Source: K189A clade bacterium
Lineage (GTDB): Bacteria > Pseudomonadota > Gammaproteobacteria > Pseudomonadales > Azotimanducaceae
Direction of reading: 5' to 3'
Assembly: GCA_902528515.1 (NCBI GenBank)
Contig: CABZTD010000006.1
Span: 24,927-88,926, forward strand
Length of the DNA: 64,000 nt
Below the pieces are notes generated by a model, which was not told where the DNA came from, searched no databases, and saw only the letters and a list, made by a program, of their open reading frames with translations. Each line of letters starts with the position of its first letter. Position 1 is the stretch's first letter. A program made the position numbers and the translations under genes. Below, in pieces: positions 14,163 to 20,059 of the stretch.

Positions 14163-14260
14163 CGGTACAATGTAGATACTCGTCAATGGAGGTAAACCTC
14201 TATAGACCATCTCCTCGTCAAACGAACATTAATATTGGGAAAAAGAAGGAAGCTGCTTTT

Positions 14261-14839
14261 ATGCTTAGAAAGGCGACTGGTGCATTTACGCTTTTGCTCT
14301 CCTCGGCGATTTATGCGGTCCCACCCGGCACTGAAGATGAAATTGCGGAAAGAATAAAACCTTTTGGAACGCTTGCCAGAGCTGAGAAAAGCTCCGTAGA
14401 GGTAGTGCCTGCAGTGAAGCAACCTTTGGCGCTCGAAAAAGTTGAATTGTCCGAAGGTAGCGAGCACGTAGTGGAGATGCTAAATGCGGGCGAAGATGGG
14501 AGCATGGTCTTTAAGCCCGCAGTCTTGAAGGTATCTATCGGCGATACTATTCATTTTAAGGCAACCGACCTAGCGCACAATTCGGCTTCAATCGATGGCA
14601 TGGTGCCTGAAGGTGCGAAGAGTTGGGCGGGTGCCCTTAGCGCAGATATTAGCGTAACGCTTGATCAGGAGGGCATTTACGTCTACCAGTGCGACCCGCA
14701 TGTGGTTATGGCCATGGTTGGAGTGGTTCAGGTCGGAAAAGCGGTGAATAGAGAAGCCATAGAGGCTTCGGCAGAAGCGATGAAAGCTCAGTTTGCTATG
14801 AATACCGACCGACTAGAAAATTATCTGTCCAGACTTTGA
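14261..14839 (+). CDS. Pseudoazurin-like cupredoxin with N-terminal extension
   Basis: ATG 14261 gives a signal peptide; cupredoxin ligand motifs AHNSASIDGMVPEGA and YQCDPHVVMAMVG (His, Cys, His, Met). Confidence 0.85.
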   Translation: MLRKATGAFTLLLSSAIYAVPPGTEDEIAERIKPFGTLARAEKSSVEVVPAVKQPLALEKVELSEGSEHVVEMLNAGEDGSMVFKPAVLKVSIGDTIHFKATDLAHNSASIDGMVPEGAKSWAGALSADISVTLDQEGIYVYQCDPHVVMAMVGVVQVGKAVNREAIEASAEAMKAQFAMNTDRLENYLSRL

Positions 14840-14982: not shown

Positions 14983-14999
14983 CGCACAAGAATGGTGCG
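14983..14999. promoter_or_regulatory. Candidate NtrC (NRI)-binding palindrome
   Basis: CGCAC-AAGAATG-GTGCG, 17 bp, same layout as TGCAC-N7-GTGCA. Lies about 170 bp upstream of the sigma-54-like element at 15171. Confidence 0.5.
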
Positions 15000-15169
15000 G
15001 CATGGTAACTTGCTCGCGCTGTTATAGAGCGGTGAAAGCAGATTCCCCGGCTGCCGCTTTTCCTTAATGCGCTTTCGTTATTCGGTTGTTATTGAATTTG
15101 GGGAAAAAAGTTAATTAAAACAGTCGTTAAGCCCTCTAATGGTGCGTTGGAGCGGACTTAGCCAAAAGT

Positions 15170-15186
15170 TGGCCCGTATGTTGCTT
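15170..15186 (+). promoter_or_regulatory. Candidate sigma-54 (-24/-12) promoter for the porin gene
   Basis: TTGGCCCGTATGTTGCTTT: GG (15171-15172), N10, GC (15183-15184); close to TGGCACG-N4-TTGCT. Confidence 0.55.
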
Positions 15187-15306
15187 TAACATGCGGGCAC
15201 GAAAGCGTATATTAGGGCTCAAAGGCGTCATTGGCTGTAACACGACTGACGCTAGGAGCAGGTGAACGAGAGTTCTAGCAAATTACTCAATCTGTCAGGA
15301 GAGACG

Positions 15307-15942
15307 ATGAAAACACTCACTAAAGCCATATCCGCTGCAGCAATCGCTGTGGGCTCGTTAGGAGCGACCTCTGTCGCAAGTGCCGATGTTTCTTACAACA
15401 TAGGATACGCGTCCGAGTATTACTACCGAGGTTTTTACCAGAAGAATTCTTCAGCAAGCGCTGGAATAGACTACGAGGAAGGCGGATTTTACGTCGGAGC
15501 TTGGACTGCTGACGTTGGTGAGGGGCTGGAGTACGACATTTACGGCGGATACGGAATGGACATCGGTGATATTTCCGTAGGCGTTGGATTTACGGGGTAT
15601 TATTACACCGACGACTTTGACGATACCTACGAAGAAGTGAATCTCAGCGTGGGATACGGTCCAGTGTCTATCGGCTACTCATTCGGCGAGTGGGACGGCG
15701 ATGGCGGTCAGGATTATGACTTTCTGGATATCTCAATCGACTTGGGCTCAGGTTTTTATGGAACCTACGGTTCGTTTGGTGACGAATTTGATGGCGACTA
15801 CTTCGAGCTCGGGTATGGCACCACTGTTTCGGACATCGACGTGGGTGTTGCTTTGATCTTCCCTAGCGACGAAATCGAACAAGCCGACGGAGAAAACGGC
15901 AACGGCGAAGGGATTGTCTTTTCTCTCGGCAAATCCTTCTAA
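15307..15942 (+). CDS. TorF-like (Gcw_chp) outer-membrane beta-barrel putative porin
   Basis: Signal peptide MKTLTKAISAAAIAVGSLGATSVASA then DVSYNIGYASEYYYRGFYQ; alternating aromatic and acidic beta-strand pattern. Confidence 0.8.
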   Translation: MKTLTKAISAAAIAVGSLGATSVASADVSYNIGYASEYYYRGFYQKNSSASAGIDYEEGGFYVGAWTADVGEGLEYDIYGGYGMDIGDISVGVGFTGYYYTDDFDDTYEEVNLSVGYGPVSIGYSFGEWDGDGGQDYDFLDISIDLGSGFYGTYGSFGDEFDGDYFELGYGTTVSDIDVGVALIFPSDEIEQADGENGNGEGIVFSLGKSF

Positions 15943-15966
15943 CTGGCCGATTAGAACGGATATCAG

Positions 15967-15990
15967 GGGCTCCCTCGGGAGCCCTTTTTT
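15967..15990 (+). terminator. Rho-independent terminator after porin gene
   Basis: GGGCTCCC-TC-GGGAGCCC followed by TTTTTT. Confidence 0.85.
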
Positions 15991-16277: not shown

Positions 16278-16550
16278 TCAGTTTTCATCCAGAGCTTTCG
16301 CTCCGTTAGCTCCAATTTTCTCCATCTCAGCCAGTCGTTGCTCCAAATAACAAATCTTTGTTTCCAGGGTCGTAACGAGAGCTTCCAGATTTTCAAACTC
16401 GTGCTTTGGTACTAACGAAAGGTTTTTAAGCACCTCCTGAACCTTGGATTCGATATCCTCGCTAATAGAGCGCGCAAGGTCGTTGGGCAAAGTTTCATCG
16501 AGTAAAGTCTTTATAGTCTGGAGTAGCGGGGCGAGCGGATCCATTTGCAT
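16278..16550 (-). CDS. ubiK: Ubiquinone biosynthesis accessory factor UbiK (BMFP domain)
   Basis: From ATG 16550: MQMDPLAPLLQTIKTLLDETLPNDLARSISEDIESKVQEVLKNLSLVPKHEFENLEALV..; divergent from glnK, as is common in gammaproteobacteria. Confidence 0.85.
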   Translation of the reverse strand: MQMDPLAPLLQTIKTLLDETLPNDLARSISEDIESKVQEVLKNLSLVPKHEFENLEALVTTLETKICYLEQRLAEMEKIGANGAKALDEN

Positions 16551-16898
16551 TCTTCTCCTTTTTAGACACTTGTGTTTTGTCGGCATTCTACAGAGCAGCG
16601 ATTCTACAAGGACTGGTTCTCAAGTCCCTATGCAGAGACCGAAATAGCTCCTTAGGCGCCGATGATTTGGTCCAGTGTTTATGTGCGCATTGGTCGGCTG
16701 CGTCTCCCCGAAAGCACCAATTTAAAGCATTGCCGCCCAACGATGCCTTAATTTAGAGCCTAAATACCAAAAAAGGCGAGGTAAGGGTGAGTCTTTAGGC
16801 TGAATTAAGTGCTTCGGAAGTGCGCGCCGCCGCGTTATGGCCGCATTGTGTGTGGTTTTGCCCTGATTTTGTGCTTTGTTAAGACTTCGACAAAAAGT

Positions 16899-16915
16899 AG
16901 GCACGTATATTGCTT
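16899..16915 (+). promoter_or_regulatory. Candidate sigma-54 promoter for glnK-amt
   Basis: AGGCACGTATATTGCTT: GG (16900-16901), N10, GC (16912-16913), near-consensus -24/-12. Confidence 0.7.
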
Positions 16916-17090: not shown

Positions 17091-17438
<348 letters not shown>

Positions 17439-17462: not shown

Positions 17463-18674
17463 TTGGAAGATCTAATACAATTAGCGTACGCAGTAGACAC
17501 GTTCTACTTCTTGGTAATGGGGGCCATGGTAATGTTCATGGCTCCAGGCTTTGCTATGCTCGAAGCGGGCATGGTTCGATCAAAGAACACATCGGGCATT
17601 CTGGTCAAGAATGTTGGGCTGTTCTCGATAGCTTGCATTATGTACATTTTAATCGGGTACGATCTGATGTACGCGGGCGGTATGATGTTAAGCCCTGACA
17701 ACAGCGTGGAAGACGTTTTGGCCTCTGGGGGCGACGTCTATTATTCCGGCAAATCTGACTTTTTCTTCCAAGTGGTCTTCGTCGCAACGGCTATGTCAAT
17801 TATTTCCGGCGCCGTTGCTGAAAGGATGAAGGTGTGGTCATTTCTTCTGTTCGCCATCATCATGACGGGCGTTATTTATCCAATTCAAGGAAGTTGGAGT
17901 TGGGGAGGTGGTTTCCTCTCCGACGCCGGCTTCGTTGACTTTGCTGGCTCTGGTATTGTCCACATGTGCGGTGCTGCTGCGGCCTTGGCTGGAGTGATTT
18001 TGCTTGGGCCGAGATCTGGGAAGTATAATGACGATGGCACGATAACTCCTATTCCAGGATGTAACATGCCGCTAGCGACACTGGGAATGTTCATACTGTG
18101 GTTTGGCTGGTTTGGTTTTAATGGTGGTTCAGAGCTAAAGCTAAGCAATGTAGACGAAGCCAATGCAGTAGCTCAGGTTTTTGTTAACACAAACATGGCC
18201 GCCGCCTGCGGAGCCGTTGCGGCCCTAGTTATGTCGCAAATCATGTTTGGCAGGGCAGATATCACTATGGCGCTCAACGGAGCGCTCGCTGGGCTGGTCT
18301 CGATAACGGCTGAGCCGTTGTCTGGGACTCACGCGGAATCTATGCTGATTGGCGCGATTGGTGGCGTAATCGTCGTTCTTTCGCTAGTAGCCTTGGACAA
18401 GATAAAAATCGACGATCCGGTAGGCGCCATTTCCGTCCACGGGACGTGCGGTATTTGGGGCTTGCTCGCTGTGCTCATAACAAGCGATGACGCTACACTT
18501 ACGGGCCAGTTAACCGGCTTGGGAGCAATCTTAGGGTTTACCTTCGTCTCCGCTCTGGTCGTTTGGTTCATCATAAAAATGATATTCGGAATTCGAGTGT
18601 CAGAGGAGGAAGAGCTCGCGGGCCTTGACTCCTCAGAAGTCGGCATTACTGCTTATCCTGAATTCAATAAGTAG
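17463..18674 (+). CDS. amt: Ammonium transporter (copy 1)
   Basis: Amt/Rh family: 'FAGSGIVHMCGAAAALAG', 'LGMFILWFGWFGFNGGS', 'SVHGTCGIWGLLAV'. Apparent TTG start with GGAGTAAGG upstream. Confidence 0.93.
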   Translation: MEDLIQLAYAVDTFYFLVMGAMVMFMAPGFAMLEAGMVRSKNTSGILVKNVGLFSIACIMYILIGYDLMYAGGMMLSPDNSVEDVLASGGDVYYSGKSDFFFQVVFVATAMSIISGAVAERMKVWSFLLFAIIMTGVIYPIQGSWSWGGGFLSDAGFVDFAGSGIVHMCGAAAALAGVILLGPRSGKYNDDGTITPIPGCNMPLATLGMFILWFGWFGFNGGSELKLSNVDEANAVAQVFVNTNMAAACGAVAALVMSQIMFGRADITMALNGALAGLVSITAEPLSGTHAESMLIGAIGGVIVVLSLVALDKIKIDDPVGAISVHGTCGIWGLLAVLITSDDATLTGQLTGLGAILGFTFVSALVVWFIIKMIFGIRVSEEEELAGLDSSEVGITAYPEFNK

Positions 18675-18700
18675 TCGATTAACTCTCTCTAGCGATAAAC

Positions 18701-18723
18701 GTGGCGGCCTAAGGCCGCCACGA
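18701..18723. other. Perfect inverted repeat/hairpin between the two amt genes
   Basis: CGTGGCGGCC-TAA-GGCCGCCACG, 10-bp stem with 3-nt loop; no following T-tract. Confidence 0.85.
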
Positions 18724-18844
18724 TACCCATAACCAGATTGCAAAAAATCCAGCGAAAGTGCGGAGGGGCAGGAAATTGGGTCCTTTCGGCACGTCGGTAA
18801 TGTTCTGCGAACACGACCCCTAATTAGTGAAATGGAGAGATACG

Positions 18845-20059
18845 GTGGAAGATCTTGTTCAATTAAGTTATTCGGTAGATACATTCTACTTTCTAGTTAT
18901 GGGTGTCCTCGTGATGTTCATGGCGCCAGGTTTTGCGATGCTCGAGGCGGGCATGGTGCAAAGCAAAAACACTTCTGAGATTCTGACCAAGAACGTGGCG
19001 CTTTTTGCCATAGCTAGTGTCATGTATCTGCTGGTTGGCTACGCCATCATGTACGGTGGGGGCGGCATGCTTATCGGCTCTGAAAATACCGTTGACGACG
19101 TACTCGCCTCTGGGGGCGATGTCTACTACTCAGCCCGTTCTGACTTCTTTTTCCAGGTGGTCTTCGTAGCGACAGCTATGTCTATCATCTCTGGTGCAGT
19201 TGCAGAAAGAATGAAATTGTGGTCATTCCTGCTGTTTGCAGTCTTCATGACCGGCGCTATCTACCCATTCCAAGGAAGCTGGAGTTGGGGTGGTGGCTGG
19301 TTATCTGATGCGGGATTCATAGATTTTGCTGGATCAGGCATTGTGCATATGTGTGGTGCAGCGGCAGCGCTTGCAGGCGTGCTGCTACTCGGACCACGTA
19401 ACGGTAAGTACGGACCCAACGGCGAGATCAATCCTATTCAGGGTTCGAACATGCCGCTCGCAACGTTAGGCATGTTCATTCTTTGGTTTGGCTGGTTTGG
19501 TTTCAACGGTGGATCCGAGTTGAAGCTGAGTAACGTCGACGAGGCCAACGCTGTCGCGCAGGTGTTTGTTAATACCAACATGGCAGCCGCAGGTGGACTG
19601 ATTTCAGCGCTTCTACTGGCGCGTGTTATGTTCGGCAAGGCGGACCTCACCATGGCGTTGAACGGCGCGCTAGCTGGATTGGTGTCGATTACAGCGGAAC
19701 CGCTGTCCGGTACCAATGTTGAGTCAATGTTGATCGGTGCGGTTGGTGGGGTGATCGTTGTGCTTTCAATCGTGGGCCTTGATAAAATGCGCATAGATGA
19801 TCCAGTGGGTGCAATCTCAGTCCACGGTACATGCGGCATGTGGGGACTGTTGGCAGTCCTCATCACTAACGACGACGCCACTTTGTCTGGCCAGCTGACC
19901 GGACTGGGGGCAATCTTGGGCTATACGTTTATTGCGTCTCTCCTTGTATGGTTCTTAATCAAGATGGTGTTCGGCATCCGGCTTTCAGATGAAGAGCAAG
20001 CGATGGGGGCGGACTCGGCAGAGATTGGTATTACGGCTTATCCAGAGTTTTCTAAGTAG
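18845..20059 (+). CDS. amt: Ammonium transporter (copy 2)
   Basis: Highly similar along its length to the product of 17463-18674. GTG at 18845 with GGAGAG upstream aligns with the copy-1 start; ORF track starts at 18827. Confidence 0.92.
   Translation: MEDLVQLSYSVDTFYFLVMGVLVMFMAPGFAMLEAGMVQSKNTSEILTKNVALFAIASVMYLLVGYAIMYGGGGMLIGSENTVDDVLASGGDVYYSARSDFFFQVVFVATAMSIISGAVAERMKLWSFLLFAVFMTGAIYPFQGSWSWGGGWLSDAGFIDFAGSGIVHMCGAAAALAGVLLLGPRNGKYGPNGEINPIQGSNMPLATLGMFILWFGWFGFNGGSELKLSNVDEANAVAQVFVNTNMAAAGGLISALLLARVMFGKADLTMALNGALAGLVSITAEPLSGTNVESMLIGAVGGVIVVLSIVGLDKMRIDDPVGAISVHGTCGMWGLLAVLITNDDATLSGQLTGLGAILGYTFIASLLVWFLIKMVFGIRLSDEEQAMGADSAEIGITAYPEFSK

Follow-up and report, generated by a model that had tools for sequence, protein, structure and literature searches.

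In Herbaspirillum seropedicae, the nlmA-glnK-amtB operon was found by experiment to be NtrC-dependent and to be up-regulated 21-fold under nitrogen limitation, and NlmA was detected in membrane extracts under the same limitation (PMC3023670). The NtrC box has been published as TGCACCAnnnTGGTGCA, with the core GCAnnA/TnnTGC (PMC8743547), and the enterobacterial glnA and glnK Ntr promoters combine a palindromic enhancer of this type with a GG-N10-GC promoter. The NtrC regulon of Burkholderia cenocepacia includes several porins. The TorF family of putative porins (TIGR02001; PF09694, Gcw_chp) was placed by TCDB with the 12-stranded porins in family 1.B.4 (PMC4827864), and the 12-stranded monomeric porins of the KdgM/NanC type pass acidic sugars.

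A stretch of DNA of 64,000 nucleotides, hereafter the window, was analysed around a gene encoding a TorF-family putative porin (positions 15307-15942, plus strand). As in the H. seropedicae operon, a gene for a membrane-associated protein is linked here to glnK and ammonium transporter genes, and as at the enterobacterial glnA and glnK promoters, a TGCACCAnnnTGGTGCA-like palindrome and a GG-N10-GC site are found upstream; unlike at those promoters, the target is a putative outer-membrane porin. The reading put forward here is that an NtrC-activated, sigma-54-dependent promoter drives a monocistronic TorF porin, which would contribute the outer-membrane component of an ammonium-acquisition regulon, and a probability of roughly 0.87 was assigned to it.

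Predicted promoter elements upstream of the porin gene

The predicted NtrC-type palindromic enhancer is CGCACAAGAATGGTGCG at positions 14983-14999 (sites of this type are given without strand throughout), where the initial annotation had correctly located a 17-bp palindrome. This is the sole occurrence of CGCAC-N7-GTGCG in the window, against 0.07 expected, and the pattern was present in 6 of 100 shuffles. Alignment of CGCACAAGAATGGTGCG with the published NtrC box gave 3 mismatches in 14 positions, with the core GCAnnA/TnnTGC retained. Genome-wide NtrC-like and sigma-54 sites were counted by pattern searches of the draft genome (2.13 Mb), in which just seven sites lie within one mismatch of GCACCANNNTGGTGC, the one at 14983-14999 among them. 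Its start precedes that of the -24/-12 site by 186 bp, a distance compatible with looping but longer than the approximately 65-145 bp of most relatives, which counts somewhat against the proposed reading. A helical phasing of these distances with a period near 10.5 bp was also considered, appeared suggestive by eye and was dropped, being unconvincing over unique distances. A possible second, weak NtrC half-site, AGCCCTCTAATGGTGCG at 15130-15146, has four mismatches and is on its own no better than chance.

The predicted sigma-54 promoter, TTGGCCCGTATGTTGCT at 15169-15185 on the plus strand, encompasses GG at 15171-15172 and GC at 15183-15184 and fits GG-N10-GC within TTGGCACG-N4-TTGCW with one mismatch, bearing out the GG-N10-GC site that had been proposed downstream of the palindrome. 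Only two sites in the window match TTGGCACGNNNNTTGCW with at most one mismatch, namely this one and that at 16898-16914 upstream of glnK. The -24 box, TTGGCCC, is a variant common to most orthologs of the lineage and differs from that of the enterobacterial glnA and glnK promoters. Transcription of the porin gene is predicted to start near 15196. Both elements lie in intergenic DNA, as annotated, the length of which is 467 bp and not the 420 bp given before, measured from the stop of a pseudoazurin-like gene at 14839 to the porin ATG at 15307.

The pseudoazurin-like copper protein encoded directly upstream of the porin (14186-14839) matches TIGR02375 at 125.8 bits and has an extended N-terminal part; in close relatives, only short, weaker matches were found at this position.

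Conservation among orthologous loci

Orthologs were searched for in 151 genomes of the same bacterial family and 30 porin loci were analysed. Once these loci had been oriented, a -24/-12 site was seen at a distance of 60-160 bp from the start codon in nearly all of them, together with an NtrC-like palindrome farther upstream. Within 350 bp, a sigma-54 site with up to two mismatches was present in 23 of 30 ortholog upstream regions versus 9 of 900 dinucleotide shuffles (1.0%), and an NtrC-like palindrome with up to three mismatches in 27 of 30 versus 35 of 900 shuffles (3.9%), corresponding to enrichments of about 77-fold and 23-fold, respectively. When the regions upstream of 223 long open reading frames in the same loci were scanned, porins included, the sigma-54 matches with up to two mismatches belonged mostly to the porins. 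After removal of similar sequences, the mean information was 1.05 bits in the sigma-54 motif columns versus 0.16 outside and 0.99 bits in the NtrC motif columns versus 0.12 outside; anchoring on the best match raises the values inside the motifs, so that significance is properly judged by the shuffle test. The upstream DNA is otherwise little conserved. Two loci form exceptions: L007 has a sigma-54 site with four mismatches only, with assembly Ns farther upstream, and no sigma-54 site was found upstream of the porin in L023.

Beside the motifs, A/T positions that precede the -24/-12 site by 2, 7 and 9 bp (15160-15167 in the window) reach 0.70-0.79 bits among the orthologs, above the other columns flanking the -24 box.

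Counts of single sites are by themselves modest evidence, and the conservation across relatives is far beyond chance. This bears directly on the explanation that both motifs are fortuitous and that a conventional sigma-70 promoter drives the porin, for instance the match TTAACA-N16-TATATT at 15186-15213, which overlaps the predicted start region. Either motif alone would be weak evidence in 64 kb, and a sigma-70-like sequence does lie nearby; however, such sequences are no commoner in the region than in shuffles (one found, 2.2 expected), and the enrichment of the two motifs over the 30 loci is confined to the motif columns. We consider this explanation hardly credible.

Both sites are also kept in six genera for which no glnK was found beside the porin in the stretches read (g2, g18, g22, g24, g25 and g34), which indicates that the porin itself is the regulatory target. 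The genes neighbouring the porin in these genera were read by eye and no evident nitrogen theme was found among them. The initial annotation had placed the porin under NtrC/sigma-54 control, tied it functionally to glnK-amt-amt and suggested conservation upstream of orthologous porins as a check, with the lack of both elements in relatives counting against it. That check was carried out and came out in its favour, as both elements are conserved upstream of orthologous porins in at least seven genera, and in Burkholderiales both also precede, independently, the TorF-glnK-amtB operons.

Gene order and predicted transcription units

The porin gene is followed by a predicted intrinsic terminator at 15965-15986 (plus strand), consisting of a 9-bp stem and a T run, and by a UbiK/BMFP-like gene on the minus strand at 16278-16586 (PF04380, 36.4 bits, just under the cut-off of 37.2; NF047835, weak). 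Beyond this gene, the plus strand encodes the P-II protein GlnK (17100-17438; PF00543, NF007946) and two ammonium transporters of the marine subtype (17463-18674, TIGR03644 636 bits; 18827-20059, TIGR03644 638 bits). A sigma-54 promoter of glnK-amt-amt, TAGGCACGTATATTGCT, is predicted at 16898-16914 on the plus strand, 202 bp before glnK, and is kept in four congeners that share this gene order. A weak NtrC-like site, AGCACCAATTTAAAGCA at 16713-16729, lies 185 bp from this -24/-12 site, and four congeners have corresponding sites at about -390 to -406. The transporters after glnK (17463-20059) are in tandem in the window and present as a single copy in several congeners.

Linkage of the porin to glnK/amt was observed in the window and in every examined locus of the same genus that extends as far as glnK. 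Four close relatives share with the window the UbiK-like gene on the opposite strand between the two, the terminator after the porin and a glnK with its own sigma-54 site. Judging from the terminator, the opposite-strand gene and the second sigma-54 site, porin and glnK-amt are probably not co-transcribed in the window. This sets the locus apart from nlmA-glnK-amtB, as the window porin, having a promoter and a terminator of its own, would be transcribed separately. In the three genomes where the porin lies directly before glnK (L020, L023 and L026), the porin lacks a recognizable terminator and neither a sigma-54 site (up to two mismatches) nor an NtrC-like site (up to three mismatches) was found before glnK, as expected for one operon. 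The arrangement in the window looks like a split form of the nlmA-glnK-amtB type of operon, with two parallel units.

TorF loci across Pseudomonadota

TIGR02001 proteins were identified in 133 of 249 sampled Pseudomonadota genomes. At 30 TorF loci read across Pseudomonadota, glnK was directly downstream in nine; seven of these nine have a sigma-54 site (up to two mismatches) or an NtrC-like site (up to three), as opposed to only a few among the 21 that lack glnK, and the sigma-54 site taken alone at the same threshold was found in 6 of 9 and 2 of 21, respectively. In named Burkholderiales genomes, glnK lies directly downstream at 72 of 77 TorF loci. Among the Burkholderiales glnK-adjacent loci with enough upstream DNA (n=73), all 73 have a sigma-54 site with up to three mismatches and 67 an NtrC-like site with up to three mismatches, and neither site is present at four of the five Burkholderiales TorF loci without glnK. 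Most TorF members without glnK linkage thus lack the NtrC and sigma-54 sites, unlike the window porin.

In Pseudoduganella (L211) and Duganella (L217), Oxalobacteraceae relatives of H. seropedicae, a TorF-family gene occupies the position of nlmA and both sites are present, and on the analogy of these two loci it is very probable that H. seropedicae NlmA, too, belongs to the TorF porins. Given the match to H. seropedicae and the TorF genes of Oxalobacteraceae, the window system belongs to an already known kind, and it extends the nlmA-glnK-amtB type of operon and does not constitute a new system. The window porin itself is only about 30% identical to Burkholderiales TorF proteins.

Regulators and proposed mechanism

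The rpoN gene was identified on contig C42 (PF04552, 223.8 bits). Neither ntrC nor glnA was found in the draft genome, which is 75% complete. Since glnA is missing as well, the genome is incomplete to this degree and NtrC was found above the curated cut-off in 12 of 12 congeners searched, the absence of ntrC likely reflects incompleteness of the assembly. The lack of both genes probably corresponds to one missing region.

The failure to find NtrC in the draft would also suit a -24/-12 promoter that is real and used by a different sigma-54 activator, with the porin answering some other signal; other such activators and many sigma-54-like sites do exist in the genome, several of the sites on contig C4 alongside activator genes. 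However, the conserved enhancer agrees with the NtrC box as published, down to the core in the window copy, the same pair of sites fronts the glnK operons of Burkholderiales, and the congeners searched all have NtrC. Control by a different activator is therefore regarded as improbable.

The sites, their conservation and the transcription-unit structure are drawn from sequence comparison, and from these we infer that NtrC acts as the activator, where transcription starts and that the gene responds to nitrogen. Under nitrogen limitation, phosphorylated NtrC would bind the palindrome at 14983-14999 and loop to sigma-54 RNA polymerase at 15169-15185, so that porin transcription would start near 15196 and end at the terminator at 15965-15986, while the separate sigma-54 promoter at 16898 would activate glnK-amt-amt in parallel. 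The porin would then probably raise the permeability of the outer membrane to small nitrogen compounds, the identity of the solute being speculative.

Further NtrC-like sites were noted elsewhere in the draft. On contig C21 (L231), one at 19101-19115 lies between divergent sigma-54-like sites (C21:19003, minus; C21:19211, plus) and fronts GalU-like and HAD-phosphatase-like genes, as read by eye, possibly a further divergent pair controlled by NtrC. Two other NtrC-like sites, one perfect and one with a single mismatch (L227, C12:51919, and L232, C34:14401), adjoin genes that resemble PuuE/allantoinase and an NCS2 purine permease, again as read by eye, suggesting that purine scavenging may share the regulon.

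The porin and its possible solutes

The porin comprises 211 residues, with a signal peptide and a predicted 12-stranded barrel, and its N-terminal two thirds match TIGR02001 at 63.1 bits, above the curated cut-off of 47.15, as befits a member of the TorF family. A Pfam search with the window porin gave no match at E≤0.001, no relative emerged when the PDB was searched by sequence, and tblastn of plasmid records gave no match. The AlphaFold2 model, calculated with 37 aligned sequences, contains 12 long strands with a mean pLDDT of 69 and a pTM of 0.67, consistent at moderate confidence only with an outer-membrane beta-barrel. The best Foldseek match of the model was the oligogalacturonate porin 8xua, and NanC and KdgM porins were in the top ten, with TM values of about 0.5-0.6 for the KdgM/NanC type. 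The PDB search detected no sequence similarity to these porins, which pass acidic sugars, whereas the protein of the window lineage is very acidic, with a net charge of the mature porin of about -34 and an ortholog median of -30.5. Such strong acidity is atypical of Burkholderiales TorF proteins, and none of the other window proteins checked approaches it.

From co-regulation and linkage, it is reasonable to suppose that the porin serves as an outer-membrane uptake route for nitrogenous solutes. Its acidic character, which is a trait of the lineage and not one common to the Burkholderiales members, may favour cations such as ammonium or amines. A nitrogen-regulated porin could instead be a general or envelope-remodelling one that is under NtrC for other reasons, for example carbon uptake when nitrogen is limiting, a view compatible with the regulatory part of the NtrC/sigma-54 explanation. 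It draws on the channels for acidic oligosaccharides among the best structural neighbours (8xua, NanC and KdgM) and on the TorF paralogs without glnK linkage, which mostly have no sites, so that the family has other roles. However, linkage to glnK-amt recurs in distant lineages, and the net charge in the family of the window porin is contrary to the needs of an anion channel. We regard a general or envelope-remodelling function as possible, though somewhat doubtful. A dedicated role, in which TorF/NlmA porins linked to or co-regulated with glnK-amt are an outer-membrane entry for ammonium or small amines across Pseudomonadota, strongly cation-selective in the marine lineage, is proposed very tentatively and is in this broad form rather unlikely.

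Biological implications

If such a dedicated route for ammonium or amines exists, the Amt-GlnK module would have a matching channel in the outer membrane. Nitrogen starvation provides a specific, testable physiological context for a family of putative porins that is listed in Pfam as being of unknown function, and the pair of NtrC and sigma-54 sites marks which TorF paralogs belong to this context. Should the channel pass ammonium or amines, ammonium capture in nutrient-poor water would be regulated at the permeability of the outer membrane as well as at Amt and GlnK.
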